Shown: in pieces, positions 1 to 19,761 of the stretch
Position numbering within the stretch: the stretch's first letter is position 1
How the letters are laid out: each line of letters begins with the position of its first letter
Notes under the pieces: model-generated
Told to the model about the DNA's origin: nothing
Databases searched by the model: none
What the model saw: the letters and a program-made list of their open reading frames with translations, nothing else
Assembly (NCBI RefSeq): GCF_024714495.1
Contig: NZ_JAMZMJ010000008.1
Span: 124,001 to 188,000 of the forward strand
Reading direction: 5' to 3'
Origin: Marinoscillum pacificum
GTDB taxonomy: Bacteria; Bacteroidota; Bacteroidia; Cytophagales; Cyclobacteriaceae
DNA: 64,000 nt
Program-made: the position numbers and the translations under genes

Positions 1-2952
1 CTGAATCATCAGGTTTTCAATAGCCTTTCTAATACCAAGCTGAAACTTATCCAGAGGATTAGCTTCTGCTGTCTGTATAATCTTTTGATCCTTGGAAGCC
101 TTTTCACGGATCTGTTCAAAGAACAGGCGGTCTTCCTCAGAGAAGTCAGTACCAAACTTATTGTTGAGTACCTCAATGATCTCTGATAAAGGTTTTTTTG
201 GTTCTTTCGATTTGCCCGAGCCTACTTCTGTTATTCCCTTTACTCCATAGGGTTCACCTTCTTCCATTACTATTGAGCCACTTGAAACTCGTTCAATGCG
301 GTAGTAATGGAGGCTGACATCATCTTCAGGTTTGATGATTTCATAATCCCTTTCTCGTGGCAGATGAGGGAGTAGAAACCTGCTAAAACTGTAGAGCATT
401 TCAAGCTCTGCATCTGCATAAGGAATGATTTGGCTTAAAAACGAGTAAGACTTGACAAATGCAGATACTTTATCTCTGAACAACTTGGCAGGCTCTTCTT
501 CTAACGTTTTATATCTGTCAACTGCTGGCTGAATATGTTTTTGCATTCTTGCATGATCAGACGGGTTTTGCGTTTCCAGGGCTTTGTAAAATACCTGGGC
601 AAATGCTTCCACCTCTGACCAATAGTATACCTGCATTGCGTTCAATTCATGCTTCAATGTTTCTAACAGCTGTGGGTCAGTTGTTTCCTGAAGTGAAGTT
701 TGGTCATAGTAAGGTTTAAAGGCCTTATAAATGTCTTCTGCACTGTTGACAAAATCCAAAACAAAGGGTGTTTCTTTACCTGGACTAATCCGGTTGAGCC
801 TTGATAGGGTTTGAACAGCCTGAACACCATCCAACCTCTTATCTACATACATGGTATGGAGTAGTGGTTGATCAAACCCCGTTTGGTACTTGTTAGCCAC
901 CAGTAGAATCTGAAAATCGTCTGTATCGAATTTCTCAGGAAGCTGGCTTTCGCTGATGGGCTTGCCGGTAACTACATCCGTATTCATTTCTGGTTCCGAG
1001 TATTCCAGTCCTGTATCAGGGTCTTGTACTTTACCACTAAATGCTACCATTGGTCTTACATCTTCGTATCCTCGTTGTTCAATATATCGCTGAAAAGCAA
1101 GCATGTACTTTACAGCGTGGAGTCTTGAGCCTGTAACAAGCATAGCCTTAGCTTTCCCATTGATTCGATGTTTGACAGAAGCACGAAAGTGTTCGATGAT
1201 TATCTGAGTTCGTTGTTCCACATTCACTGGATGCAAGGCCATGAATTTTCCTAAAGCCTTTGCTGCTTTTTTCTGGGGAAATTCTGGGTCTTCATCTATT
1301 GCCTTAACAAGCTTGAAAAAAGTATCAAACGTTGTATAATTCTCCAGAACATTTAAAATGAATCCTTCCTGAATGGCTTGGCGCATGGAGTATACATGGA
1401 TGGCTTCATCTTTTCTACCGAATAACTGTAAGGTTTTTCCTTTAGGAGTGGCTGTGAAAGCAAAGAAGCTGATATTCTTCTGCTTACCTCTCGACTCCAT
1501 TACCTGATTCAATCGGTCTTCCCAGTCGGATTCTGCTTCTTCGGATTCTATTGTTGTTCCTGCTCCTAATATTTCTTTAAGTTCTCTGGCCGTTTCTCCT
1601 GTCTGGCTTGAATGGGCTTCATCTACAATGATTGCGTAATTCCGTTTGGCAATTTCTTCTTGCCAGGCTTTTGATGTTGCAATCTGATCTTCAGTAGCTT
1701 TACCGGAACTATCAGCTCCTGCCACTTTGAGCAATCCCTTTAAGACAAAAGGAAACTTTTGTAGTGTGGTGATAACAATTTTAGTCCCGTCAACTAGGGC
1801 TTCTGCCAACTGTTGAGAATTTTGATCTATGGCTTTAACAACACCCTGAGCATGCTCGATTTGATAAATCGCATCCTGTAGTTGTCTATCAAGGACTTTT
1901 CGGTCTGTGATAACCACTACGCAATCAAAAACCTTTTGATCATCATCTGTATGCAGGCTGGCTAAACGATGTGAAAGCCATGAAATACTGTTTGTTTTGC
2001 CACTACCGGCTGAATGTTGGATCAGGTAATTGTGGCCTGTGCCTTCATCTCTTGATGTCTTAATTAATTCCCTAACGACATCCAATTGATGGTATCGGGG
2101 GAAGATGACAGTTTCCTTGGTATATTTCTTTTTTACCCCATATTCATCTGTTGTGGTTTCTTCTTTTGTTTCAATGAACATGAAGCTACCGATGATCTCC
2201 AAAAAGCTGTCATGCTGAAGGACTTCTTCCCAGAAATAACCCGTACGATGACCTGAGGGATGTTGTGGGTTTCCTGCACCACATTGAATTTCTCCAGGAT
2301 GGCTTCCTCTGTTGAAGGGCAGAAAAAATGTTTTTTCACCTCTCAGATGGGTAGACATGTGAACTTCATCCGTATCGGCAGCAAAGTGTACCACTGCACC
2401 CGATTTGAATTTGAAGAGTGGCATCCTCCAATCCCTATCTTTTCGATATTGAGCTACCGCATTTTTCCAATTCTGACCTGTTGCAGGATTCTTTAATTCG
2501 CAGGTAGCTACCGGAAGGCCATTAATTGAAAAAACCAGATCCATAGTATCATGTCTAGACGTATGACAAGGAACCTGACGGGTTACTGTCAATTGGTTTT
2601 TTTGATAGCGTTCTAGAATCTCGGGGTTGAGCTGATGGGCAGGTTTGAAATAAGCCATTTGAAAGGTCTTGCCGAAGAACTTGAATCCGTGCCGCAAGAT
2701 GTGAAGTGTTCCTTTCAGGTTCCTTTCTTTAACCAGCGTGTCAAGGATTTTAGTGTCCAATTCTTGACCGTGAAGTTTTAGCATTTGCTGATAAAGCTCC
2801 TGCTGACTGGACTGGATAAAGGAAAGGACACGATCTGTGAAGAATCCATGCTTTCGATCAAATTCTTTATTCGTTCCTTGTGTCCAACCACCTTGCGTGA
2901 GGAGGACTTCCTCTATGTAGGCTTCAAAGGCTTGTTCTGCTGTTGCTTTCAT
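1..2952 (-). CDS. hsdR: Type I restriction enzyme R subunit, HsdR (C-terminus cut by window edge)
   Basis: This is the motor and nuclease subunit of a type I restriction-modification enzyme: it translocates DNA with ATP and cleaves unmodified DNA as part of the HsdR2M2S complex. The frame stays open for 984 codons to the window edge, so only a short C-terminal piece should be missing (family about 1,000 residues). The N-terminal PD-(D/E)xK nuclease core shows Asp138 and the E-L-K triad at 152-154. The Walker A motif AGSGKT is at 315-320 and the DEAH box at 444-447, giving a superfamily 2 helicase motor. The ATG at 2952-2950 overlaps the stop of the FRG gene (ATGA), so it is translationally coupled. 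No frameshift was seen in the parts translated. Confidence 0.95.
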   Translation of the reverse strand, partial: MKATAEQAFEAYIEEVLLTQGGWTQGTNKEFDRKHGFFTDRVLSFIQSSQQELYQQMLKLHGQELDTKILDTLVKERNLKGTLHILRHGFKFFGKTFQMAYFKPAHQLNPEILERYQKNQLTVTRQVPCHTSRHDTMDLVFSINGLPVATCELKNPATGQNWKNAVAQYRKDRDWRMPLFKFKSGAVVHFAADTDEVHMSTHLRGEKTFFLPFNRGSHPGEIQCGAGNPQHPSGHRTGYFWEEVLQHDSFLEIIGSFMFIETKEETTTDEYGVKKKYTKETVIFPRYHQLDVVRELIKTSRDEGTGHNYLIQHSAGSGKTNSISWLSHRLASLHTDDDQKVFDCVVVITDRKVLDRQLQDAIYQIEHAQGVVKAIDQNSQQLAEALVDGTKIVITTLQKFPFVLKGLLKVAGADSSGKATEDQIATSKAWQEEIAKRNYAIIVDEAHSSQTGETARELKEILGAGTTIESEEAESDWEDRLNQVMESRGKQKNISFFAFTATPKGKTLQLFGRKDEAIHVYSMRQAIQEGFILNVLENYTTFDTFFKLVKAIDEDPEFPQKKAAKALGKFMALHPVNVEQRTQIIIEHFRASVKHRINGKAKAMLVTGSRLHAVKYMLAFQRYIEQRGYEDVRPMVAFSGKVQDPDTGLEYSEPEMNTDVVTGKPISESQLPEKFDTDDFQILLVANKYQTGFDQPLLHTMYVDKRLDGVQAVQTLSRLNRISPGKETPFVLDFVNSAEDIYKAFKPYYDQTSLQETTDPQLLETLKHELNAMQVYYWSEVEAFAQVFYKALETQNPSDHARMQKHIQPAVDRYKTLEEEPAKLFRDKVSAFVKSYSFLSQIIPYADAELEMLYSFSRFLLPHLPRERDYEIIKPEDDVSLHYYRIERVSSGSIVMEEGEPYGVKGITEVGSGKSKEPKKPLSEIIEVLNNKFGTDFSEEDRLFFEQIREKASKDQKIIQTAEANPLDKFQLGIRKAIENLMIQ

Positions 2953-3890
2953 AGTCCGTTTTCAAATTCTTTATATTTCAGCCACTTGGCCATGCCGTCC
3001 AGATCAGGAAACAATTGCTTGTCAAATACACCATATTGCTCCAACTGCTTACATATCTTCCTGTGGTTGTCTTTTTTGTGTTCGATCACATACTCTATAT
3101 AGTCATCTTCATCTATAGGAGTCAAAGGCCGGTGGCAGGCTAAAAGCACTCCATCTTGTGCCCTTATCCTTGGCGATACGTGCGCAGGGTCGTAAATGAT
3201 GTTTTCGCTAATGTCAAAAGGGGATGCAACCTCTTCTTTTGTTAATTCACTTGATTTGGCTACACTTTTATCTCTTGATTGTTTTTCTGATTCATATGCA
3301 TCTCTTAGCATCGTTTGAAGATTAGACATCATGGCAAGGTCCAAATCGCTCTTCTCACTTAAACTACCAAGTTCATATTCATCATAAGGGTCTTCTTCTT
3401 CAAAATCATGTACTTTTTCTGTCATAGAGTCACCAACTGGTAAGATGTCACGATGTTTATTCTCCTCATACCTCAGGAAATCACTGTATTTCTTCACTGG
3501 CTTAGTCAAAATATAAACTGCACTGTCTGACCCGTTAATGGCATTTCTACAAGCAAAGTATAAGGCAACCAAAGGGTTGGTGGTCCAGTCCATAAAGCGG
3601 GTAGGAAGTCCATGATGTTGGGCTAGAGCCAGCATTTCCCAGTCGTTTCTGGGAATGTGGTTCACATGGCCTATCACATGATTTGCAAATGTGTCTAATA
3701 CCCGGCACTCGAAATCAAAGAGATCTGATAACCGCTTGGGTACTTTAAAATCCGGCCTGCCAAGGGAAGGAACCAAAACAAAGCCATCGGAAACCCTTTT
3801 GGCTTGTCCTCTGAAATAAGGTCTGGGTACAGTGACTTCCTCGATCTCTTTTAAGTACTTTTCAAATGAATCTATGTAAATGGTGTTCAT
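2949..3890 (-). CDS. FRG-domain protein embedded in the type I R-M operon
   Basis: A 313-residue protein with the FRG domain, named after its Phe-Arg-Gly signature: YFRGQAKR is at residues 25-32 and the second family block LAQHHGLPTRFMDW at 89-102, followed by a hydrophobic strand (NPLVALYFAC). FRG domains are common in phage-defence loci, but the biochemical activity is not settled. The start overlaps the hsdS stop and the stop overlaps the hsdR start, each by the 4-base ATGA arrangement, so it is made in step with the R-M subunits. An acidic linker (about 155-175) and a charged region follow the domain. A role as accessory toxin or R-M modulator is inference from position. The family call is firm and the function is not known. 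Confidence 0.88.
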   Translation of the reverse strand: MNTIYIDSFEKYLKEIEEVTVPRPYFRGQAKRVSDGFVLVPSLGRPDFKVPKRLSDLFDFECRVLDTFANHVIGHVNHIPRNDWEMLALAQHHGLPTRFMDWTTNPLVALYFACRNAINGSDSAVYILTKPVKKYSDFLRYEENKHRDILPVGDSMTEKVHDFEEEDPYDEYELGSLSEKSDLDLAMMSNLQTMLRDAYESEKQSRDKSVAKSSELTKEEVASPFDISENIIYDPAHVSPRIRAQDGVLLACHRPLTPIDEDDYIEYVIEHKKDNHRKICKQLEQYGVFDKQLFPDLDGMAKWLKYKEFENGL

Positions 3891-5170
3891 GACGGTTCTG
3901 TGACTTTGATTTTACCGGTTACCGCTGCAGATATCAGAGCGGTTTTATATTCTTGAAGTTTTCGTACCGTTTCACCTGTTTTATTAATTAGATTATCTAT
4001 TTGGCTAATTTCTGGCTTTGTTAAAGTTATTATGCTGTCTTGCTCAGTATCCGGAGGTACAGGAACTTGAATTGACATTAATCTGTCAGATGTCAACTTT
4101 GGTTGTGCAGAGCCAGTTATGAGTGGGTAATATTCAAATATTTGCAATAGCCATTCCCAGAATTCAATGTTTCCATATTTATGCTTCAATATGTGCGCAT
4201 GGTTATTTACCCAATATTTCCCAGTTGCAATGAAGGCTAATGGAGTACTCCTTGAATATAAATTGGCACCATCCTCTGCAACTAGAATATGTGCTTCATC
4301 AAATAGATAGTTATCAACAAAATCAATTATTCCTGATGCTCCATAATAAGGATAAACTTTTTCCAATGAGGCTCTGTCTTCACCTGCTAAGGGAATTCTT
4401 CGAAAGTTTAGGTTTTGAAAAATGTACTTTAGCTTTTTTACCTCCCAATGCTTCGGAATATCTCCGAGCCATTCAATCCCACTTGGCTTTAATTCCACTG
4501 TGGGATCAATCCCCTTGGTGACGGCATTGGTGATTACTGCCAGTCGCTTTTCCTTTAGTCTTTCAATGAACTGTTGTTTCTTCTCTATAAGCGTGTCCAG
4601 TCGGGAGACTTCTTTATCCAGGAAGTTGGCGATGGATTGTTGTTCTACTACAGAGGGAGGAATTGAGAAATATAGAGAAGCGTATTTCTCAGCACTTACA
4701 TTTTGGATGGTGGCTTGAATTGTAATTGATTCAATCCATTGAGCATACCCATTAGACTTGGTCGTATAGTAAAGGAATTGAGGGTCGTACTTTTTCGTAT
4801 TAATTCGAGCCCTAATGAGGTAACCTGCGTATGCAGATTGACCCCACGAATCCTTATATATAAATGATTTCCCTACGGTTGCTCCACTTCTTGCCAACAG
4901 AATATCACCTTCTTGAAGCAAGTATGGTTGTGCAATTTCTGGCTCTAGTGAACGAAAGGTTTCATCTTTTAAATTGCCATTAGTATCAACATCTGTAATT
5001 CTTACATATCGCGGGAAGCCAGGTTCGATTAATTCTGCCGGAACATTTGCTCCGTACTTTAAACTTTCTTTGGTTAAAAATTTAAGCCGTTTAATACTCC
5101 AATGACTGGGTATTTCTCCAATCCATTCGACACCACTTTCGGTGTAGCTATTGTATTTATCTATACCCAT
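3887..5170 (-). CDS. hsdS: Type I restriction enzyme specificity subunit HsdS
   Basis: The specificity subunit recognises a bipartite DNA target for the methylase and restriction complexes. At 427 residues it has the expected two-domain layout. A first target-recognition domain follows the repeat motif SGVEWIGEIPSHW (residues 12-24), and a second follows the related SGIEWLGDIPKHW (230-242). Each half ends in a helical conserved region with the LDTLIEKKQQ/LI-type coiled coil (about 190-212 and near 395-415). The start lies one base after the hsdM stop, and the stop overlaps the FRG gene start. The two recognition halves are not alike, consistent with an asymmetric target. No inverted repeats or partial hsdS copies that would suggest shuffling were seen nearby. 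Confidence 0.94.
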   Translation of the reverse strand: MGIDKYNSYTESGVEWIGEIPSHWSIKRLKFLTKESLKYGANVPAELIEPGFPRYVRITDVDTNGNLKDETFRSLEPEIAQPYLLQEGDILLARSGATVGKSFIYKDSWGQSAYAGYLIRARINTKKYDPQFLYYTTKSNGYAQWIESITIQATIQNVSAEKYASLYFSIPPSVVEQQSIANFLDKEVSRLDTLIEKKQQFIERLKEKRLAVITNAVTKGIDPTVELKPSGIEWLGDIPKHWEVKKLKYIFQNLNFRRIPLAGEDRASLEKVYPYYGASGIIDFVDNYLFDEAHILVAEDGANLYSRSTPLAFIATGKYWVNNHAHILKHKYGNIEFWEWLLQIFEYYPLITGSAQPKLTSDRLMSIQVPVPPDTEQDSIITLTKPEISQIDNLINKTGETVRKLQEYKTALISAAVTGKIKVTEPS

Positions 5171-5171
5171 T

Positions 5172-7265
5172 TTAAATAGATTCAGAATCAGTTACTTCTT
5201 TCAATAATCCTAAAATGTCCTTCTCCAAATCCTTTAGCTCCTCTTCGATCAATTCCAAATCTCTTGGGGGTTCATATTGAAAGAAGTGTTTGTTTAAAGG
5301 AATCTCATAACCCACTTTGGTTTTGGAGTGGTCTATCCATGCATCGGGTACATGGGGTAGCACTTCTCTTTCAAAGTAGGTCTGAATGCTTTCTTTGAGT
5401 GGGATCATTTCGGTATCCCTTAGTTGTGGATCGGGTTCCGGGTCGCCTTTTTTATCCCTGCATATCTCGGCTGTTTCGTCCCGTTCACTTAGTGCCTCTA
5501 AGATGGCTTTTAGTTCAGAAGCGTTGAGCTTCATTTCTTTTTTCTTGTCCACTTCCCTCAGATCAAGTAAAAAGCTTTTGCGGTCGTTGTACAACTTCTC
5601 GTTGTGTGCTTTACCAAAGTCCTTGAGCATGTCTTTGATTGCCTGTTGGCGTTGTTCTCCGGCTTCTATTTCCTTCAAGCGCACATTTTCATCTTTCTTA
5701 TTGCTGCTAGCAATGTTTTGAAATGAGCTAATACCATCTAGTAGGGCAATCCGCTCGGCAGTGGCCTGGAAGTTTAGTCTTAGCGGACGCTCTACGGTAA
5801 TTTTGTTGTAGCCAAAGTCTTCATTGTCGAAGACCTTGCTCACAGGCAATTCTTTTTCTTTGCCATCAATGGTGAATTTGGCTTTTTCGTCATTCTGAAA
5901 GCGATCATAAATGCCTGTGATTTCAGCTATCTGATTGGGTCGGTTTTCTTCTCCATCGCCAATTTGCTTTCGCTTATTTCCAAGACTCTTTTTCATTTGA
6001 ATCCAGAAATTACGACCATCGATCAATTGAATTTTGCCTTTACGGGTTTTACTCTTTCGGTTGGTCACAATCCAGATATAGGTGGAAATTCCAGTATTGT
6101 AGAATAGCTGATCTGGTAGGGCGACAATGGCATCCAGCCAGTCATTTTCGATGATCCATCTGCGTATTTCTGACTCTCCACCTCCGGCATCACCGGTAAA
6201 GAGTGGGGAACCATTAAAAACTATAGCAATCCTACTACCGTCTTCATTCACTGGTCTCATCTTTGACACCATGTGTTGTAGAAACAGTAATGCTCCGTCA
6301 TTGACCCTTGGTAATCCTGCTCCAAATCGACCATTATATCCGAGAGATTCGGCTTCTCGTTTGATGTATTTTTCTTGCTGCTTCCAGGAAACCCCGAAAG
6401 GAGGGTTGGCTAGCATGTAATCAAACCTTTCGGAGGGGAACGCATCTTTGGTGAAGCTGTCTCCAAGTTTAATCTTTTCTTCATCATGTCCTTTGATCAA
6501 CATGTCCGAGCGGCAAATAGCCCAGGCCTCATCGTTCCAGTCCTGTCCAAATAGATGAGGTTGGGCGTCTTCATTGAGTTGTTTGATGTATTGCTCTGCT
6601 TCAGAAAGCATACCTCCGGTTCCACAAGCCGGGTCATAGATCATTTTCACTTTAAAACTCTGAGCCAAGTCGTCTTCAGGTGACAGTAAAAGATCAACCA
6701 TCAACTTGATGACCTCTCGAGGAGTGAAGTGCTCTCCGGCCTCTTCATTGGACTGTTCAGCTCCGATCCTAATGAGTTCCTCAAAGATGTAACCCATTTG
6801 GAGGTTATCGATCCTGCCTGGTGACAGGTCGATGGTCGAGAATTTCTTGATAACCTGATAAAGAATGTTCTTTTCAGCCATCTTTCGGATTTCATCCTCA
6901 AATTCAAATCTTACGAAGATTTCCCGAACATTGGGGGAGAAGTTGTTGATGTAGCTATTGAGGTTCGGAGCAATCTGGTTGGCATCATCCAAAAGCCTTT
7001 GAAAGTCCAGTTTCGACAAGTTGTAGAATTTAACGCCTGTTACCTCTTGTACTTTAGCATCTACGATACTTTGTGATTTGCCTTTGTACTGGCTGTAACG
7101 CTCCAAGGTGGCTTGCTTGGTTGGTGCAAGGATGCAATCAAACCTTCTAAGTACTGTTAGCGGTAAGATTACTTTCCTGTATTCATTGCGTTTGTAGGGG
7201 CCTCTGAGGAGGTTGCATATATCCCAAATAAAATCCGCCATCTGGCGGTGAGTTTCTACTGTCAT
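5172..7265 (-). CDS. hsdM: Type I restriction-modification N6-adenine methylase HsdM
   Basis: The methylase subunit transfers a methyl group from S-adenosylmethionine to adenine N6 at the HsdS target. An N-terminal HsdM helical domain (about 5-140) precedes the catalytic domain, with SAM-binding motif I DPACGTGGM at 211-219 and catalytic motif IV NPPFG at 287-291. At 697 residues it is longer than the classical ~500-residue HsdM; the extra C-terminal ~200 residues are charged and end in a coiled-coil-like helix (ELIEEELKDLEKDILGLL). It is the first R-M gene in the minus-strand run, with a 45-base gap to the preceding membrane-protein gene and one base to hsdS. The R-M subfamily cannot be assigned by eye. 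Confidence 0.95.
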   Translation of the reverse strand: MTVETHRQMADFIWDICNLLRGPYKRNEYRKVILPLTVLRRFDCILAPTKQATLERYSQYKGKSQSIVDAKVQEVTGVKFYNLSKLDFQRLLDDANQIAPNLNSYINNFSPNVREIFVRFEFEDEIRKMAEKNILYQVIKKFSTIDLSPGRIDNLQMGYIFEELIRIGAEQSNEEAGEHFTPREVIKLMVDLLLSPEDDLAQSFKVKMIYDPACGTGGMLSEAEQYIKQLNEDAQPHLFGQDWNDEAWAICRSDMLIKGHDEEKIKLGDSFTKDAFPSERFDYMLANPPFGVSWKQQEKYIKREAESLGYNGRFGAGLPRVNDGALLFLQHMVSKMRPVNEDGSRIAIVFNGSPLFTGDAGGGESEIRRWIIENDWLDAIVALPDQLFYNTGISTYIWIVTNRKSKTRKGKIQLIDGRNFWIQMKKSLGNKRKQIGDGEENRPNQIAEITGIYDRFQNDEKAKFTIDGKEKELPVSKVFDNEDFGYNKITVERPLRLNFQATAERIALLDGISSFQNIASSNKKDENVRLKEIEAGEQRQQAIKDMLKDFGKAHNEKLYNDRKSFLLDLREVDKKKEMKLNASELKAILEALSERDETAEICRDKKGDPEPDPQLRDTEMIPLKESIQTYFEREVLPHVPDAWIDHSKTKVGYEIPLNKHFFQYEPPRDLELIEEELKDLEKDILGLLKEVTDSESI

Positions 7266-7310
7266 GTTTTACTTTTAATTCGCGCTAAAGTAAGAATTGA
7301 ATATTCAAAT

Positions 7311-7952
7311 TTAAGTATCTGCCTTTGGATTACCCGAATATTGGTCTTCTGCGCTTGCATCAAACTTGTTGTCTATTTTCTGGGTAATTGCTTTGAGTTT
7401 TTTGGAAAGCACTATCATCATTGAAATACCTGTAATAAAAGCAGTGACGATCTTATTGGTGTCTTTTTGGACATTAAGTTCATGGGCCTCTTCGTTTCTG
7501 TAGATCTTAAGTACTGACACTAAGTGATAGTCCTCTGTTGATATAACTCCTTTTATTCTGGCAAACTCTAAGTAATCATGGAAAACGCCTTTTCTATTGT
7601 TTTTCTTAAGGAAGTCTTTGAATGACTGATCTTGCTTGTAGAGTTTTTTGAGCAGGTTTTCAATGATCTTAGCGAGTGCTGATAGTGCTTTGGTTTCTTC
7701 TTTGATTTCTATAAGTCCGCTAATGCTCATTAATTCAGCCTGAGTATCTTCATCCAAATGATCATCGGATTGCACCAATTCTTTTAATCGGGATTTGATT
7801 TCCTTCGTAATCAGATCATTCTCTTCAATTACTTTTTCTAAGTTATCGACTGTAGCTATTAGTTTTTTTCGATCTAGGGCAAGCCAAAGAATAATCATAC
7901 CTGCAACTACTGCAAGCGAAACTGCAATGTCTTTCCATTTATTATCGGCCAT
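7311..7952 (-). CDS. Membrane-anchored helical protein of unknown function in defence operon
   Basis: I do not recognise a named family with certainty. The 213-residue product has one clear N-terminal transmembrane segment (about residues 8-25, IAVSLAVVAGMIILWLAL), then a charged helical, probably coiled-coil, region (28-75), then a helical domain containing RNEEAHEL near residue 150. That Arg-x-x-x-x-His pattern recalls DUF4145-type helical bundles found beside nucleases and R-M genes, but the likeness is weak. A second hydrophobic stretch lies near 170-185 (AFITGISMMIVL). It sits between the Shedu-like gene (56-base gap) and hsdM (45-base gap) on the same strand, so it is probably co-transcribed with the defence genes. 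Function unknown. Confidence 0.75.
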   Translation of the reverse strand: MADNKWKDIAVSLAVVAGMIILWLALDRKKLIATVDNLEKVIEENDLITKEIKSRLKELVQSDDHLDEDTQAELMSISGLIEIKEETKALSALAKIIENLLKKLYKQDQSFKDFLKKNNRKGVFHDYLEFARIKGVISTEDYHLVSVLKIYRNEEAHELNVQKDTNKIVTAFITGISMMIVLSKKLKAITQKIDNKFDASAEDQYSGNPKADT

Positions 7953-8008
7953 ATTGGTTAAGATTTAAGTAATTAATAGGAATTGAATAGTCAAATTTGA
8001 AAAAGGTC

Positions 8009-8797
8009 CTATACATAATTTCCATGTTCAAGAACACTTATTGCTGAATCAATAAGATTGTCATAATGTAAAATAAGGATGCTGCTCTCTTTCTTCATTT
8101 TTCGAGCAATTCGATAACTATGGTCATTGAAGTCCTCTCTCAAGCCCGCAACAACTGCAAAATGCATCCTGGTTGTGTCTAACGATAAAAACTCCATAGG
8201 CAGGCTACTATGTTTGCCTTGATTCTTTTCAAACATAAGTTTTAGATGAGAAAAATTTGACTCTAGCCAATAACTCCAATCTTCTACTTGTTTAATGCCT
8301 TTCCGAAAGGTGGTTCCAAGGTTTCCATCCTTTGTGGTAATATCTGTGTTTGGGCGTTCGAGTTCGACAAAAACAAATTCGTGCCCATATGAACTCTTTC
8401 CAATTACTAAATAGTCAACTTTGTAGTTGGGTGGTAGTTCAAACTCTGGAAATAGAAAAGCTGAGTGGTGGCCAAATCGATAATTTTGAAGGATAGATCC
8501 AATAATGAAATATGCTTTTTGGATTTTAATGAATCTTAGGATGTCTCTTTCATTAGAGGATTTGTCATGAATGATAGATTTAAATTGATTCATGATGTCG
8601 GTGGTAGTTTCGTTCACATCAAGCTCATCAGTGTCAAGAATGTAATTAGGGAATATTGATTCATGAAAGAAAAAAGCCTTAGGTGTTTTTATGAAATCAA
8701 CTATATCCATTGAACTTCCAAATCCCTTCTTTTTTGCAGCCAGGTATTCTTTCTTTTCTTCTTTTGTTAAGTCAAAATATCCTCTGTCGTAAAGCAT
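8009..8797 (-). CDS. DUF4263 / Shedu-like PD-(D/E)xK nuclease
   Basis: The central part (about residues 118-180) fits the DUF4263 domain that defines the Shedu anti-phage protein. It has a YKVDYLVIG strand carrying the first acidic residue, then the FVFVELERP strand supplying the E-x-E(/K) position of a PD-(D/E)xK-type core, then the conserved helix with IKQVEDWSYWLE. The C-terminal half has the family's RMHFAVVAGL strand and the ILHYDNLID end. At 262 residues it is compact, with a distinct ~110-residue helical N-terminus, as is usual because Shedu N-termini vary between subfamilies. It lies 23 bases after kwaB. The domain call is good, and nuclease-based defence is inferred from the family. 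Whether it acts alone or with its neighbours is unknown. Confidence 0.8.
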   Translation of the reverse strand: MLYDRGYFDLTKEEKKEYLAAKKKGFGSSMDIVDFIKTPKAFFFHESIFPNYILDTDELDVNETTTDIMNQFKSIIHDKSSNERDILRFIKIQKAYFIIGSILQNYRFGHHSAFLFPEFELPPNYKVDYLVIGKSSYGHEFVFVELERPNTDITTKDGNLGTTFRKGIKQVEDWSYWLESNFSHLKLMFEKNQGKHSSLPMEFLSLDTTRMHFAVVAGLREDFNDHSYRIARKMKKESSILILHYDNLIDSAISVLEHGNYV

Positions 8798-8820
8798 TAA
8801 AATAGAATTTAAAATTGAAC

Positions 8821-9819
8821 TTAAGCTGATGCTGTTTCTTCGATAGCTTCTGTGTTTTCTGTTTCTTCTTCAACCGATATTCCATCTTTGGCCAGGCTGT
8901 CATAATAAAGCTTAGTTAGTTCAGAGGTGAGGAGATCATCATTGAGGATTTTCATGAACAAATCTTTAGAAACCCTTGTGTCCAATGTGAATTGTGTCTC
9001 ATCTGCATTATATCGCATTCTGTTCCGAGTGGCAGGGTGTAATTTGGAAAATGCTATAATATTTGAATTGGGGATTTGATGTTGAATAACAGGTGAACTT
9101 CTAGCTATCCGAGTGAGTTTTCTGGCAAAACTGATGTCAGATACTAGCTCCTCAAGTGTTTCTAAATTGCTAACTAAAGCTATTTCCCTAATAGTATCCA
9201 AGCCTGCGATAGCTTCACGCTCAATGACATCATGAAACCCGAAACTACGCTCGATAGCTGCCAAATCAGTAATGATGATTTCTTCATTGACTCTGATCAC
9301 TTGAAATCTTGGACTCATTCTAAGTAGTTGGTCATCAAAACGTTCTAGTCGTTCAGAAGCTCTGGCTTTACCAAAAATAAGGCCTCCGCGACCAATCACT
9401 TCGACAGGGGATAGTTTCTTGAATAAAGAAATTTCAGTGTCTTCATCAGCTAAAACTACAATTAAGGATTTTACCTGGGATAATTGGTTATCACCGAAAT
9501 TGAAATTATTTATTTCGTCATTGCCAATGACACTACTCAGTAGTTCAAACTCATTAGGTAGTTCTAAGTCATAAGCATAGAAGCAGTTCTTTCGTTCATC
9601 AGCAGTTGATAATGGAAGAACGGAATACTCATCTTTATCTATTATTGACTGCTTAATATAGCTAACAAAGAGTTCGTGGATGGGAGGTAGGTCGTCTGCT
9701 TTGATGTCTAGTTTTTTAGGGTCGTTTTCACCATCAAGTAATGCATACAAAATGATTTGAAGATCACCCTGCGGATTTTGTAAAAATTGCAGTGCCTCAT
9801 TTAGTTCTGTTTTAGTCAT
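8821..9819 (-). CDS. kwaB: Kiwa anti-phage protein KwaB (DUF4868)
   Basis: This 332-residue soluble protein resembles KwaB, the DUF4868 component of the Kiwa defence system. Family features seen are the early YDLELP strand, the LIVVLAD strand, the FGKARASERLERFDDQLLRM block near the middle, the IITDLAAIERSFGFHDVI segment just after it, and an LHPATRNRMRY region with a helical tail. The last ~20 residues are acidic and low-complexity. The gene starts three bases after kwaA, which is the partner that defines Kiwa, and the combined evidence makes the call strong. In Kiwa, KwaB is the cytoplasmic effector associated with the KwaA membrane complex and acts on phage DNA; that part is family knowledge, not visible here. 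Confidence 0.86.
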   Translation of the reverse strand: MTKTELNEALQFLQNPQGDLQIILYALLDGENDPKKLDIKADDLPPIHELFVSYIKQSIIDKDEYSVLPLSTADERKNCFYAYDLELPNEFELLSSVIGNDEINNFNFGDNQLSQVKSLIVVLADEDTEISLFKKLSPVEVIGRGGLIFGKARASERLERFDDQLLRMSPRFQVIRVNEEIIITDLAAIERSFGFHDVIEREAIAGLDTIREIALVSNLETLEELVSDISFARKLTRIARSSPVIQHQIPNSNIIAFSKLHPATRNRMRYNADETQFTLDTRVSKDLFMKILNDDLLTSELTKLYYDSLAKDGISVEEETENTEAIEETASA

Positions 9820-9822
9820 ATG

Positions 9823-10401
9823 TCATTTATTAGATGTTTTATAAGCATAGTAAATCCGTTCATCAAGTTTGAGGTATTTCACATGGTCATCCTTTAATAA
9901 TTTCTGTTTACAAATAATTATTTTGCTTTCTCGGATTGAACCATTTCTGAATTGACCATCAACTTTATAAATTCTGAATTGAAGGATAGCTAAGGTAGGA
10001 TTAGCATAAAACAGATCTGTGCGCACATAGATGATACCAATCACAAGAAGAATTATCACAAATACCAATTGGTACCGAACTGAGTCAAACTGAAAACACA
10101 CTAAGGGAATAATGTATGTTGTAAGGAATGTTAAGTGTTCATAATCTATATTTTCTATTTTAATGATTTGGAATGAAAGCTCTGGTGACCCTTTAGTTTG
10201 ATAACTGAAATCCCAATAAGATATACCACCGATTATAAGACAGACAAGGCAAATAATTGGAATAACATTTCCAAATAACAGAGGATACCAACCAATAAAT
10301 TCACAACCCGAAAAGCATACAGGAACATTAATTGTAATTATTATTATCAAAACAAAGAGAAGCCAAAGCGATAGGGCAAAAAGACCAACTTTTCTTAACA
10401 T
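9823..10401 (-). CDS. kwaA: Kiwa anti-phage membrane protein KwaA
   Basis: A 192-residue polytopic protein with four hydrophobic segments: about 5-25 (VGLFALSLWLLFVLIIIIT), 45-65, 90-105 and 110-128. It fits KwaA, the membrane sensor of the Kiwa system. Features shared with KwaA as I know it are the PVCFSGCEFIGW loop after the first segment and the TDLFYANPTLAILQFRIYKV block that starts the cytoplasmic tail. It is immediately followed by kwaB (three-base gap). It is the first gene of an unbroken minus-strand run reaching hsdR, so the promoter for the whole set probably lies upstream between 10402 and about 10550. I could not identify that promoter by eye. Confidence 0.83.
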   Translation of the reverse strand: MLRKVGLFALSLWLLFVLIIIITINVPVCFSGCEFIGWYPLLFGNVIPIICLVCLIIGGISYWDFSYQTKGSPELSFQIIKIENIDYEHLTFLTTYIIPLVCFQFDSVRYQLVFVIILLVIGIIYVRTDLFYANPTLAILQFRIYKVDGQFRNGSIRESKIIICKQKLLKDDHVKYLKLDERIYYAYKTSNK

Positions 10402-10900
10402 AAGCTTCAGCTATCTGGTAATAAGCCTTTTAAGAACTTACTAGGATTGTGAAATATCAACTCTATTTTCATATGCGGTGAACTTTACAATAATATGGCA
10501 GGATCAAATTATATCATTTCGTTATGTGCTGCAAGGTGGTTAATGGAAGGATTTGGGTGGTTTATCGAAAGCTTCTTCTGACAAAACGGTGTAGTGCTTT
10601 TTAATCTTGGAATAGTGATAGTTAGCAGTTGGCATTGGCTTTTTGCTTTTGGCCGTTGGCCATTCGTTCCTGGTCATCGGGTAAATCAACTACTCAGAAA
10701 TGGTATCTCCTGTATTTTCTTTCTGTAGGGTGGGATTTTCTTTCTGAACCGTGTGTCCCCCTCCGCCTTTCAGGCACCTCCCCCAACAAGGGAGGAAAGT
10801 GTTTGGTTGAGTAGTGGTTAGTTATTAGTGGATTAGTGATTGTCGGGTCGGAAAGGACCCTCTCTGTCCTTCGGACATCACTGGCCGTGCGCCACCGAAT
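10402..10900. other. Noncoding region upstream of kwaA
   Basis: No convincing gene is seen on either strand. The first ~150 bases are AT-rich and should contain the promoter of the Kiwa/R-M operon. From about 10610 the composition changes to G/T-rich text with short hairpin-like GC stretches, for example the complementary pair around GTCCTTCGGAC near 10866-10876. It then grades into the direct-repeat block starting at 10901. Short frames here overlap the repetitive text and look like chance. Confidence 0.6.
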
Positions 10901-11182
10901 CGTCGGACCGCCCCTGAATCATGGGGAGAAAAGAGAAGTGGTCCGGTTAAAGATTGGTGTTTTGGGTGAGTTGGTGATTAGTGATTGGTAGGTCGGTAAT
11001 CGGTAGGTCAGTAAATCAGTGAACGGCAGAGGTGAATTGAGAATTGAAAATGGAGAGTTGAGAATAATTGGCGAAAGTGTGAGATTCTTCTATCATCAGA
11101 TTGACAAAGTTGTTTGTGATCGGTAGACTAGTGATTAGTGGATTAGTGATCGGTGGGTCGGTTGATAGTTCCACCCCCTGCG
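10901..11182. repeat. Direct repeat block A, left copy
   Basis: This ~280-base noncoding block recurs at 13714-14015 in the same orientation. Shared landmarks in order are CGTCGGACCGCCCCTGAATC, AAAGATTGGTGTTTTGGGTG, the run GGTCAGTAAATCAGTGA, TTGGCGAAAG followed by AGATTCTTC, GACAAAGTTGTTTGTGAT, GTGATTAGTGGATTAGTGAT and GTTCCACCCCCTGCG. Substitutions and small indels separate the copies. The pair brackets the AbiE toxin-antitoxin operon. Confidence 0.88.
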
Positions 11183-11267
11183 CCCAATGACATAATATTA
11201 AGTACATTCTTTGGTTGTCTCTCCCTTCCCGCTCTTTGGAAGAGAGGGTAGCGATGGCATTAACTTA

Positions 11268-11548
11268 ATAGCATTACATCGCCGCCAGCGGGGATAGTTT
11301 AATTCGGGAATAAGTATGAGATTGCTTCTCTCGCTCTAAAGAGACGAGATCGCAATGACGGTTTTGGAGAGAAGATTCCACTAGAATTCATTTCAATTAA
11401 CCTAACTAGTTTAAGGAGCCAAGATGAATTCGGGGAATGACGGATAGTTAGATTGCTGAGCTGAGAGCCATTAAGGTGTTGGTTCCTGATTTTAAGGCAG
11501 TCAAAAAACCACCCCCTACCCCCGCCAGCGGGGGATATTTTATTTTGG
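11268..11548. repeat. GC-rich REP-like hairpin elements
   Basis: Two copies of a GC-rich element occur here: GCCGCCAGCGGGGATAGTTT starting about 11270, and the stretch with CCCCGCCAGCGGGGGATA at about 11519-11536. A third sits at 14163-14199. Each can fold through the CCCGC(C/T)-x-GCGGG core and is followed by an AT-rich ATAnTTTA tail. Between the two copies lies a GAGATTGCTTCTC...CGCAATGACG inverted segment (11328-11360). The pattern resembles bacterial REP/BIME-type intergenic repeats. Confidence 0.6.
11368..11445. repeat. Direct repeat block B, left copy
   Basis: A ~75-base block that recurs at 14055-14131, with four mismatches counted over roughly 73 aligned bases. The shared core includes AATTCATTTCAATTAACCTA, then ACTAGTTTAAGGA, then ATGAATTCGGGGAATGACG. 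It is more conserved than block A. It could be a mobile-element remnant, a regulatory RNA or a recombination substrate; no coding potential was seen. Confidence 0.85.
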
Positions 11549-11770: not shown

Positions 11771-12742
11771 CTATATCAATTTTGGAAATTGATAAGCCTT
11801 AATAAAGGATTTGATCCTACCCATAGAATCCAAAATGGAGTCAGAACTTGGTAGATCATCTGACCAGATTAGCTTAGAGAGTTCTCTCTGGTATGTTTCT
11901 TTTAAAGGAGCCCACATATCATCTATGTCTCTAAGTAATGGGGAATCATGAATAGGAAGTGATACCCAATCACCAGAGAAGGTATTATTCTGCTGGTCAT
12001 CCTGTAGCACCAAAGTAATGAGCTCAAAATTCTCCTGTACTAAAAGAGAGTTCTTCAAGTCTGGCTCATTTAGAAGTTTATGTATATCGTAGAAGTGTCG
12101 GATTTTCTGTTTTAGTTCATCTGCCCCTTCATAGGATAACCGAACCAAAGACATGAGTTTTTCATAGAAGGTTCGTTCTCGCTTTAATACGTTGATTTCA
12201 AACGCCTCCAGATTATGCTCCCTAATCAATTCCTCCTCACCTACATTGGATAGAAACTGAGCAACATAGGACTGAATAGTTTTCCTCTCAAAAGGAACGG
12301 GATTGGTAAAGCAATTGATCTCTAGCTGAATTTGTGGTTTTACGGGATCAAATATCTCTTCTTCAACAGCACGTGGGTAGCTGTAAAAAGTCCTTCTGTT
12401 TCTACCTCTCTTTTCTTCATTCGGGTGTTTGAAGTATTCCAACCCATCGGAAGCTTCTGTCTCAACTGCCTTAATAACCCTTTTGAGTTGATTATCCGTT
12501 ACACTCTCCTCTTTTAATATGGCCAGATCAATGTCTTCAGAAAATCTGTCAATGCAATTGAAAGCTTTGGATAATGAGGTACCCCCTTTGAAAATTACTT
12601 GATCACTTGAACTAGCCTGTGCAACATTTCTTAAGACATAAGTCACCCAATAGTCTTTTTCTATAAATATGTCTCTAAGTCTGAAATGTGCTGCAGCTGC
12701 ACGTATGGCATCTTCAAAGTCTGACGACTGGTGAAAGGTCAT
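11771..12742 (-). CDS. abiEii: AbiEii/AbiGii-family nucleotidyltransferase toxin
   Basis: This is the toxin of a type IV (AbiE) toxin-antitoxin pair; the family is a DNA-polymerase-beta-like nucleotidyltransferase acting in abortive infection. The 323-residue sequence shows the family order: EKDYW at 28-32, the glycine/serine motif GGTSLSK at 53-59, and the metal-binding D-x-D (Asp70, Asp72) in SEDIDLAI. The helical C-terminal half carries KLMSLVRLSYEG and a DIHKLL block, as usual in this family. All expected catalytic residues are present, so it is probably active. It overlaps the abiEi stop by four bases (ATGA), giving coupled translation. The pair lies between two long direct repeats in the island. 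Confidence 0.93.
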   Translation of the reverse strand: MTFHQSSDFEDAIRAAAAHFRLRDIFIEKDYWVTYVLRNVAQASSSDQVIFKGGTSLSKAFNCIDRFSEDIDLAILKEESVTDNQLKRVIKAVETEASDGLEYFKHPNEEKRGRNRRTFYSYPRAVEEEIFDPVKPQIQLEINCFTNPVPFERKTIQSYVAQFLSNVGEEELIREHNLEAFEINVLKRERTFYEKLMSLVRLSYEGADELKQKIRHFYDIHKLLNEPDLKNSLLVQENFELITLVLQDDQQNNTFSGDWVSLPIHDSPLLRDIDDMWAPLKETYQRELSKLIWSDDLPSSDSILDSMGRIKSFIKAYQFPKLI

Positions 12743-13467
12743 AGAATGTTCCAGTTTCTTTTGTCAGGCAATACCTGCTCACTTACTCCAATGTTGTACC
12801 TGGTAAGCTTGTTCAATGACTTTGATAGCTGATCAAGCATTACATTAATACCAACCTTCTGAAAGATTGCCCCTAGCAAAGCTCTAGTAGCGGCATTGTA
12901 GTTCAAAGCTAATTTGGCCAAGCGTTGCTGCTCCTGAGGTTTAAGATTCTTTATTTGTTTGAAAACAACAGGCAAAACCTGATCTGGGGAAGAGTCCGGA
13001 ATATTTTTGATGTCCTTTATAGCATCCAACAATTGAAGTAATGAAATGTCCTGATCCCTAATCGGGACAGTTCTTTGCTGATACTTCACCCGATAGCCTT
13101 GTACCTCTTTTGATGGAAGTGGCTTATTGGTGGCAATCTCCAACGTATTGGATACTTGCGAGGTTAACCCCAGCTTATTGTATACCGGAATACCTGTGAG
13201 ATAACCTATTCTTTGACCATTCTTTGTTGTGAGTGCCTCAATGATAGCTGACTCTTTGGGGCGTAATGGCCCAAACCTGGATAGCTCAGGTTTGTAGTAT
13301 TTTCCTTTGGCTATACGCATGATCTTGCCCTCCTTACTCAATCTACTCAAAGTCATGGCAAGAGCAGATTCTTCGATCTTATCTTTCTGAAAACGAGCAT
13401 ACCCAAAAACAGAACCTGGCTCCATTTTTTCAATTCGCTTTTTTACTAAAGATGATGAAGTAGACAT
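12739..13467 (-). CDS. abiEi: AbiEi-family antitoxin / transcriptional regulator (DUF6088)
   Basis: Cognate antitoxin of the AbiEii-type toxin. The 242-residue product starts with a winged-helix DNA-binding domain (residues 1-70: an early GSVFGYARF block, then ALAMTLSRLSKEGKIMRIAKGKYY, the recognition helix and wing). A C-terminal domain follows with YLTGIPVYNKLGL and a basic ALLGAIFQ segment, matching the DUF6088-type AbiEi antitoxins. These antitoxins act without contacting the toxin directly and repress their own promoter. Two inverted repeats 24-61 bases upstream of the start fit that (13491-13528). It is first in the two-gene operon. No frameshift is seen. Confidence 0.9.
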   Translation of the reverse strand: MSTSSSLVKKRIEKMEPGSVFGYARFQKDKIEESALAMTLSRLSKEGKIMRIAKGKYYKPELSRFGPLRPKESAIIEALTTKNGQRIGYLTGIPVYNKLGLTSQVSNTLEIATNKPLPSKEVQGYRVKYQQRTVPIRDQDISLLQLLDAIKDIKNIPDSSPDQVLPVVFKQIKNLKPQEQQRLAKLALNYNAATRALLGAIFQKVGINVMLDQLSKSLNKLTRYNIGVSEQVLPDKRNWNIL

Positions 13468-18633: not shown

Positions 18634-19731
18634 TTATAGCAGATGTTGATTTGCTTCGTCAATTACTTGTTTTTCAAATCCATCCAAATAGACTTGCGTT
18701 GTTTTTTCGGAATAGTGTCCAAGGCTCTCACTGATGATATTAGTAGCCACTCCACTTCTTTTAAGCACAGTAGCATAGGAATGTCTTGCAACATAGCTGG
18801 TGAGCTTGAAGTTGATTTCGAGCTTGTCAGCAATTTTCTTTAACCACTTATTGGTGATTTTAATGGACAACAACTTCACAGACTTAGCCGTTCTCTTGGT
18901 CTTTCTCCGGATGTAGTTGATTCGACCATCATATATGTTCTCATTCTTGAGAAAGGCAATATCTGTAAAATTCATTCCCTGACATAGATATGAAAGTAGC
19001 CAGTAGTTCTGTGCAAACCATTCTGAAGAATGAGGAAGTGCCTCGTAATTGTAGATATTCAAAACCTGCTGTTTGGTTAACGCCCGTTTCATGGCGCCTT
19101 CACTTGGAATCTTATATTGTCGGAACGGATAGTCATTCTGTCCTACAATACTCTTATCGATAGCCCTATTATAAATGGTACGCAAAGACCTCATGTAAAT
19201 GCCGATAGAAGTCACCGATAGATTTTTGCGCATATGCCTCTCAAAGTCTTTTAGAAACGTAACAGTAAGATCTGCAAAAAGTAGATCCCTGTTGTTTCGG
19301 AACTTCTTCAAGGCATTTAGCGCGTTTCGGTATGAGATGGCTGTACCTATTCGCTCCTCGCTCTCGAGATCACGAATGATGGAATTGAAAAGGGCAAAGA
19401 CGGATGTCTCCTCTCCTAATGCAATAAACTCCGATTCGAAAAGATCAAATGAAAATGCTCGCCCCTTCTTTTCGATTTCAGTGATGATCTCTTCAGCCAA
19501 TTTTTCATATTCAACAAGCTTAAACTTTATCTCCTTAAGTTTCTCCTTTGGTCTCTGACCCATGACCTTTTCCCAGTCCTCCTCAGATAGGTATATCACC
19601 TCACTGGGGTTTAACATAAGGGAGAAGTATTTCCGCTTACGACGATAAGTAAGTCGCAAGCGAACCGGATATCTACCGTCATTTAATTGTCTCTTTTTAT
19701 GAAGAATTGTTGATACAGTTACTTTTTCCAT
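18634..19731 (-). CDS. Tyrosine recombinase / integrase of the genomic island
   Basis: A site-specific recombinase of about 365 residues with the Bacteroidota layout: N-terminal arm-binding domain (VTVSTILHKKRQLNDGRYPV, then YRRKRKYFSL), SAM-like core-binding domain, and catalytic domain. The second Arg and following segment (VARHSYATVLKRSG), LGHYSEKTT with the catalytic His, and the nucleophile Tyr in TTQVYLDGF are present. The usual first catalytic Arg region reads YLCQGMNFTDIAFLK, with Gln where many relatives have Arg. I prefer the ATG at 19731, giving MEKVTVSTIL, over an upstream ATG at 19761 that lies in a 12-base tandem repeat. It sits next to the displaced tRNA-Asn end and should catalyse integration and excision of the island. 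Confidence 0.92.
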   Translation of the reverse strand: MEKVTVSTILHKKRQLNDGRYPVRLRLTYRRKRKYFSLMLNPSEVIYLSEEDWEKVMGQRPKEKLKEIKFKLVEYEKLAEEIITEIEKKGRAFSFDLFESEFIALGEETSVFALFNSIIRDLESEERIGTAISYRNALNALKKFRNNRDLLFADLTVTFLKDFERHMRKNLSVTSIGIYMRSLRTIYNRAIDKSIVGQNDYPFRQYKIPSEGAMKRALTKQQVLNIYNYEALPHSSEWFAQNYWLLSYLCQGMNFTDIAFLKNENIYDGRINYIRRKTKRTAKSVKLLSIKITNKWLKKIADKLEINFKLTSYVARHSYATVLKRSGVATNIISESLGHYSEKTTQVYLDGFEKQVIDEANQHLL

Positions 19732-19737
19732 AAGCCA

Positions 19738-19761
19738 GATTGGATACACGATTGGATACAC
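19738..19761. repeat. Tandem 12-bp repeat beside integrase (candidate arm-type sites)
   Basis: GATTGGATACAC occurs twice head to tail immediately upstream of the chosen integrase start. A third related copy (ATTGGATACA) lies just past the integrase stop at 18622-18631, all in the same orientation. With the core site about 130 bases away, short direct repeats here are good candidates for arm-type integrase-binding sites. They could instead be regulator sites of the integrase promoter. Confidence 0.5.

Follow-up and report, generated by a model that had tools for sequence, protein, structure and literature searches.

A probable mosaic defence operon in Marinoscillum pacificum and the recurrent joining of Kiwa to restriction-modification genes

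Results

Ten genes in series on one strand

The window analyzed here is a stretch of 64,000 nucleotides from Marinoscillum pacificum (assembly GCF_024714495.1, contig NZ_JAMZMJ010000008.1, forward-strand positions 124,001-188,000). Its subject is a series of ten minus-strand genes that starts with the Kiwa pair kwaA-kwaB, passes through a type I restriction-modification (R-M) operon and ends with mcrC, with no gap larger than 56 bases. In order of transcription the genes are kwaA, kwaB, a gene for an SduA_C-domain protein, a gene for a protein of 213 amino acids (aa), hsdM, hsdS, an FRG-domain gene, hsdR, mcrB, and mcrC, and the gaps across the eight genes from kwaA to hsdR measure 3, 23, 56, 45, 1, -4, and -4 bases. 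A first-pass annotation, made from the letters of the window, had described these eight genes with their common strand, small gaps, and two overlaps. All eight lie where it placed them, but the run does not stop at hsdR, since mcrB and mcrC follow on the same strand, and hsdR is incomplete in the window, continuing for 129 bases beyond the edge (full length taken from locus L003). The genes and repeats are as follows.

9823-10401, minus strand: kwaA, 192 aa, membrane component of Kiwa (NF041622, 238.5 bits; PADLOC KwaA, 2.3e-76)
8821-9819, minus strand: kwaB, 332 aa, DNA-binding component of Kiwa (NF041623, 371.7 bits; solved KwaB 9o0i, E 4.9e-33)
8009-8797, minus strand: SduA_C-domain gene, 262 aa (PF14082; PADLOC PDLC00386, 4.7e-97), with a nuclease-like fold of the Shedu kind
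7977-7998, minus strand: first copy of a 22-bp direct repeat, within the 56-bp gap preceding the 213-aa gene
7311-7952, minus strand: 213-aa gene, hydrophobic N-terminus (judged by eye), RNEEAH motif, no family over cut-off
7291-7312, minus strand: second copy of the 22-bp repeat, in the 45-bp gap preceding hsdM and overlapping the last bases of the 213-aa gene
5172-7265, minus strand: hsdM, 697 aa, type I methyltransferase (HsdM_N, 90 bits; N6_Mtase, 201 bits)
3887-5170, minus strand: hsdS, 427 aa, specificity subunit with two Methylase_S stretches
2949-3890, minus strand: FRG-domain gene, 313 aa (PF08867, 82.7 bits against a cut-off of 25), overlapping hsdS and hsdR by 4 bases each
1-2952 within the window, minus strand: hsdR, 1026 aa in full (HSDR_N, SWI2_SNF2, T1R_D3-like)
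L002:13467-15815 and L002:12142-13494, same strand: mcrB and mcrC, mcrB starting 56 bases after hsdR and overlapping mcrC by 28 bases

The family names of the first-pass annotation hold as well: KwaA and KwaB exceed their NCBIfam cut-offs (100 bits for NF041622 and 200 bits for NF041623), the SduA_C, R-M, and FRG proteins exceed those of Pfam, and PADLOC agrees for seven of the eight. It is in these two scores, from genes 3 bases apart, that the pair resembles Kiwa, and KwaB also matches solved KwaB chains. The known system is described as two-component (PMC12904381), whereas here kwaA-kwaB heads a ten-gene run.

By Pfam, HsdM, an HsdS with two target domains, and HsdR are all over their cut-offs and make up a type I R-M system; the NCBIfam models TIGR00497 and TIGR00348 match the R-M proteins yet stay below theirs. 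The FRG gene is thus a foreign gene inside a type I operon, lying between hsdS and hsdR on their strand. McrBC is recognized from McrC (PF10117, 265.7 bits) and an AAA-domain McrB (AAA_5, 53.7 bits).

The SduA_C-domain protein

The SduA_C domain (PF14082, DUF4263) scores 51 bits in the 262-aa protein against a cut-off of 27. The structural model is confident, with a predicted local distance difference test (pLDDT) value of 93.2, and Foldseek ranks the Shedu nuclease domain 8ti9 first among its PDB matches (E 2.7e-4), so that domain and nuclease fold are shared with Shedu (SduA). At the level of sequence, neither the protein nor its profile matched a solved Shedu in the PDB. The canonical PD-(D/E)xK nuclease motif ends in a catalytic lysine. 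In an alignment of 31 rows, E118, D128, E145, E147, and Q170 are invariant, and ELE replaces the ExK of the motif, with E147 in every row. Because Glu147 stands where the canonical lysine would be expected, we class the protein only as an SduA_C-domain protein and not as an active Shedu.

A first scan of genome contigs gave no relative of this protein. A scan for its subfamily in one genome per species (84,980 species) gave 52 loci. Leaving out L100, with 30 residues, and L054, which shares its contig with L047, and adding L019, L020, and L047 makes 53 loci, or 59 with six viral contigs; L085-L096 are near-copies by identity and length. Two distinct members of the subfamily (L067 and L086) occur on the Lachnospiraceae chromosome AP025573.1.

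Two of the 53 non-viral loci place the subfamily inside a type I operon. L058 has the order M-RhuM-S-SduA-R, with SduA in the hsdS-hsdR slot that FRG occupies in the window (HsdM 50% and HsdR 44% identical to those of the window), and L072 has the order SduA-M-S-x-R. A third locus, L049, has an HsdM-like frame some 7.5 kb from its SduA gene. The content of the slot varies among relatives of HsdR: in eight loci opened by hand (L168-L175, from 762 plasmid records matching the window HsdR) it holds AAA+HNH genes, RhuM, other or small unknown genes, unannotated stretches, or nothing.

The 213-aa gene, the 22-bp repeat, and a seam before hsdM

No Pfam or NCBIfam family exceeds its cut-off in the 213-aa protein, PADLOC gives it no match, its profile matches nothing in the PDB, and searches of plasmids and viral contigs found no relative. 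It is a putative membrane protein, judging by eye from the N-terminus. Of 194 genomes searched, nine match: the window's own, L011, and seven weak ones, two of which lie at loci whose long frames lack the RxxxxH motif and look like another gene, the other five being open frames of 360-715 aa. L011, at 29% identity, is the sole credible relative; its gene lies near a transposase-like gene (by eye), and it keeps R, N, E, and H of the RNEEAH motif. This HEPN-like RxxxxH motif recalls HEPN RNases, although the structural model (pLDDT 51.8) is too poor for a comparison of the putative helical fold.

The 22-bp direct repeat that flanks this gene occurs twice in the 64 kb, against 0.01 copies expected, and its core is near-palindromic; it could be an operator or an insertion footprint. 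Guanine-plus-cytosine (GC) content is 31-38% in kwaA, kwaB, the SduA_C-domain gene, and the 213-aa gene, 39-43% from hsdM to hsdR, and 34-35% in mcrB and mcrC. The GC step together with the repeat suggests a seam before hsdM that was formed by later assembly.

Scans of the window for terminators (14 found, 10.8 expected) and promoters (25 found, 27.3 expected) stayed at background. The terminator scan placed no minus-strand site in any gap within the window (the hsdR-mcrB gap lies outside it), which bears out the earlier statement that no terminator was seen between the eight genes. A single transcript is plausible for the run, the window showing no terminator that would speak against it. Bacteroidota-type promoters have the form TTG-N17-23-TANNTTTG. 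No full promoter of this form was found on the minus strand of window positions 1-11500, against 0.44 in shuffled sequence; a TANNTTTG box stands at 7313-7306, shortly before hsdM.

The complete gene order is found in the window's genome

The first-pass annotation had proposed that the eight genes might be a composite system not yet described as a unit, and had named a lack of conservation of their order outside the strain as one finding that would refute this. Within the data searched, the whole order was found nowhere else. Among 17 other Kiwa loci of the window's phylum, none has the SduA, FRG, or 213-aa gene; among the 59 SduA-subfamily loci, none has KwaA or KwaB nearby by profile or single-sequence search, with 13 of the 53 non-viral loci having less than 3 kb of DNA on one side. 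None of 19 fetched loci of FRG relatives has type I R-M genes nearby; these relatives are distant and match part of the protein, and so may not be orthologues. On these data we set aside three ideas: that the eight genes form a conserved composite, that Kiwa and SduA make up a paired unit, and that FRG partners with R-M as a rule. Within the data searched, the whole gene set is thus known from the window's genome alone. The part of the proposal that stands is narrower and concerns Kiwa and R-M.

Kiwa is repeatedly linked to R-M genes

Scans for Kiwa (13 of 395, 8 of 395, and 7 of 294 genomes) gave 19 distinct genomes besides the window's own. Two of these were left out: in G192 the match covers 61 residues of a 1379-aa frame, and in G920 the frame has an internal stop and lies on a contig of 3.8 kb. 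The others are the 17 loci. Linkage was scored with two methyltransferase families picked without reference to Kiwa, PF02384 and PF00145, and with distances read by hand from listings. A methyltransferase lies within 3 kb of Kiwa in seven of the 17 loci (G297, G164, G054, G176, G137, G762, and G581); G290 was counted as unlinked, though its contig is 3.4 kb long. In the same genomes one of 16 AbiEii genes is so placed (Fisher p 0.024 versus Kiwa), a modest control, for which 19 rows came down to 16 genes once two split genes had been joined and one fragment below the cut-off removed. The 3-kb limit was set after the loci had been seen, and a limit of 3.3 kb would add a second AbiEii gene (G762) to the linked ones. 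As a further control, none of 21 FRG genes in genomes of the window's order is linked (p 0.0019, computed with 20); these are the 21 of 28 rows from other genomes that fall in the 18 genomes searched with the markers. Random placement would give the Kiwa linkage with a probability of 4e-10, a figure that ignores the clustering of defence genes. The remaining ten Kiwa loci have no methyltransferase within 3 kb by the two models, and one of these, G055, has an Eco57I-type enzyme.

A tree built from 26 KwaB proteins requires eight changes of the R-M label, at least six of which are forced by well-supported branches, and it is this that shows the linkage to recur; L127 and L167, where the gaps are near 200 bases, were labelled R-M, L112 "no", and L041 and L128 "adjacent". 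The number of changes about equals that of shuffled labels, with no extra clustering. The linkage is gained and lost often and is not one inherited arrangement.

In six of the 17 loci Kiwa is joined to R-M genes on a common strand, no gap exceeding 100 bases. L036 has the order M-x-KwaA-KwaB-R (no HsdS was recognized there), L110 has R-M-S-KwaA-KwaB, and in L044 a methyltransferase with an HSDR_N domain and an S gene precede KwaA and KwaB. The pair also follows Vsr, a C5 methyltransferase, and an Eco29kI-type nuclease (L040), a 1058-aa N6/Eco57I-type methyltransferase that is probably type IIG (L043), and a helicase with an Eco57I-type methyltransferase (L045). The queries for this count included R-M proteins from Kiwa loci, so the count favours Kiwa, whereas the Pfam-marker test does not; its AbiEii figure was not used, the model having found the gene in just seven of 17 loci. 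Looser arrangements occur in L041, where Kiwa is divergent from M-S-R, and in L112, with hsdM about 1 kb downstream.

On plasmids, whose gene tables are incomplete, a Hymenobacter record has the order R-PDDEXK-S-AAA-M-KwaA-KwaB, with 216 bases before kwaA, and a Paraburkholderia record has an Eco57I-like methyltransferase upstream of Kiwa. A convergent C5 methyltransferase lies by Kiwa in Pseudomonas syringae (two of four matching records opened), and a methyltransferase and S gene start about 6 kb from it in Vibrio. The tables of the Emticicia, Paracoccus, and Rhizobium plasmids list no R-M gene directly beside Kiwa, and the models used found none near it in an unannotated Methylorubrum record. 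Support thus grows for the narrower idea of a connection between Kiwa and R-M: in several lineages Kiwa sits next to or within R-M operons, and the R-M genes include type I, type II, and Eco57I-like ones. We found no statement of operon-level Kiwa/R-M linkage in the literature searched, whose coverage left out preprints and the primary Kiwa paper, and this is weak evidence of novelty.

Other genes beside Kiwa were also seen: a Piwi-domain gene (PF02171; L037:10785-13076) about 350 bases after kwaB, and a gene after kwaB on the same strand (L043:8074-9225) with a weak SIR2-like match below the cut-off.

Elsewhere in the window

Upstream of the run and on its strand, positions 11771-13467 hold an AbiEi/AbiEii pair, separated from kwaA by more than 1.3 kb, and the intergenic stretch 10600-11400 holds many short degenerate repeats (by eye). 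At 18634-19761, some 8 kb from kwaA, a gene that by eye resembles those for tyrosine recombinases may point to a mobile island. Between 32658 and 47668 three similar large proteins of about 1090 aa stand in tandem, adjoining a SusC/SusD-like pair (by eye).

Discussion

We consider it probable that the run is a mosaic defence operon built from known modules, and we read the composition steps and the 22-bp repeat as assembly from at least three pieces. A type I operon, hsdM-hsdS-hsdR, would carry the FRG gene in its hsdS-hsdR slot, a lower-GC front block of Kiwa, SduA-domain nuclease, and small membrane protein would have been added ahead of hsdM, and McrBC at the other end, after hsdR. Joint expression from a promoter that lies upstream of kwaA is probable, and the repeat preceding hsdM may provide an operator or a second start. 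With functions taken from the named families, each module probably forms a defence layer of its own: R-M would cut unmethylated DNA, McrBC DNA with modified cytosines, and Kiwa would bind incoming DNA at the membrane and block its replication. DNA is probably also what the SduA-domain protein acts on, and the FRG and HEPN-like proteins may serve as a reserve that, like PrrC, comes into action once R-M has been inhibited.

Two observations weigh against this account. The GC content of hsdS (38.5%) is close to that of kwaB (37.7%), so that the step in composition, though clear at hsdM, does not hold for every single gene; and the Kiwa/R-M linkage exceeds what a random stack would give, so that the parts may not be independent. 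The second observation is the starting point for a functional composite, in which Kiwa works with the R-M enzyme as an add-on effector of R-M operons here and elsewhere, an explanation that we think unlikely. Under this explanation methylation might, for example, mark self DNA for KwaB, or phage inhibition of R-M might switch Kiwa on. The excess over both the AbiEii and FRG controls, the six tightly joined loci, the Hymenobacter and Paraburkholderia plasmids, and the differing R-M types with their repeated changes on the KwaB tree all speak for it. Yet defence genes cluster anyway, the R-M label on the tree is no more clustered than in shuffles, and ten of the 17 loci have no methyltransferase within reach of the two models. 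Kiwa also precedes hsdM in the window, whereas it follows the methyltransferase in the six joined loci. Moreover, a two-gene Kiwa cloned from Streptococcus thermophilus is reported to give protection, and the same paper places a Kiwa pair of this species in a defence island together with R-M systems (PMC11514479).

The run might instead be a set of defence-island neighbours with two or more transcripts, namely Kiwa-SduA-213-aa gene, R-M-FRG with a promoter of its own where the repeat precedes hsdM, and mcrBC. The TANNTTTG box at that point, the near-palindromic repeat in both gaps around the 213-aa gene, the composition steps, and the AbiE genes close upstream are consistent with this; the lack of a full promoter on this strand over positions 1-11500 and of a terminator in any gap within the window, and the overlaps that bind hsdS, frg, and hsdR, are not, and we regard separate transcripts as possible but somewhat improbable.

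A mosaic of this kind has precedents. Defence genes stacked in type I operons are a known kind already (PMC12255303, PMC11411939), with PrrC (as in EcoprrI), TgvAB, RloF, and DarTG2 described inside such operons (PMC12707154, PMC3874165, PMC11411939, PMC12255303). For DarTG2 and RloF the sources state the hsdS-hsdR slot (PMC12255303, PMC11411939), the one that holds FRG here on the strand of its neighbours; for PrrC the sources give the position as within the operon (PMC12707154, PMC3874165). The window differs from all four in that the embedded gene is FRG and in the extra modules before hsdM and behind hsdR. No RptR-like regulator was recognized in the run, though no search was aimed at one. 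McrBC is often joined to type I R-M, as in the E. coli K-12 branch (PMC11090510), and here mcrB-mcrC follow hsdR on its strand, in a run that has additional modules. The composite is best seen as a new stacked variant within a known class of defence operon.

What deserves further attention is that Kiwa is joined, time and again, to R-M genes of several types. A bolder proposal, to which we give little credence, is that Kiwa is a portable effector module of R-M operons that was joined many times independently to type I, type II, and Eco57I-like R-M. The reasons it could offer are likewise speculative: methylation might tell Kiwa self from non-self, or Kiwa might guard R-M against phage inhibitors. 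Were the proposal to hold, which we doubt, the window would be the most layered case of such joining. Accounts of Kiwa itself diverge, its action being described as binding injected DNA at the membrane without cutting (PMC12904381) and tabulated elsewhere as DNA degradation (PMC12322248).

Mosaic assembly, our preferred explanation, has a meaning for such operons in general: they may gain modules ahead of the methyltransferase, after hsdR, and between hsdS and hsdR. How Kiwa spares the cell's own DNA is, to our knowledge, an open question. If the joining of Kiwa to R-M reflects a shared function, methylation would be a direct and testable answer to it, and the linked loci and the Hymenobacter plasmid would be ready material.

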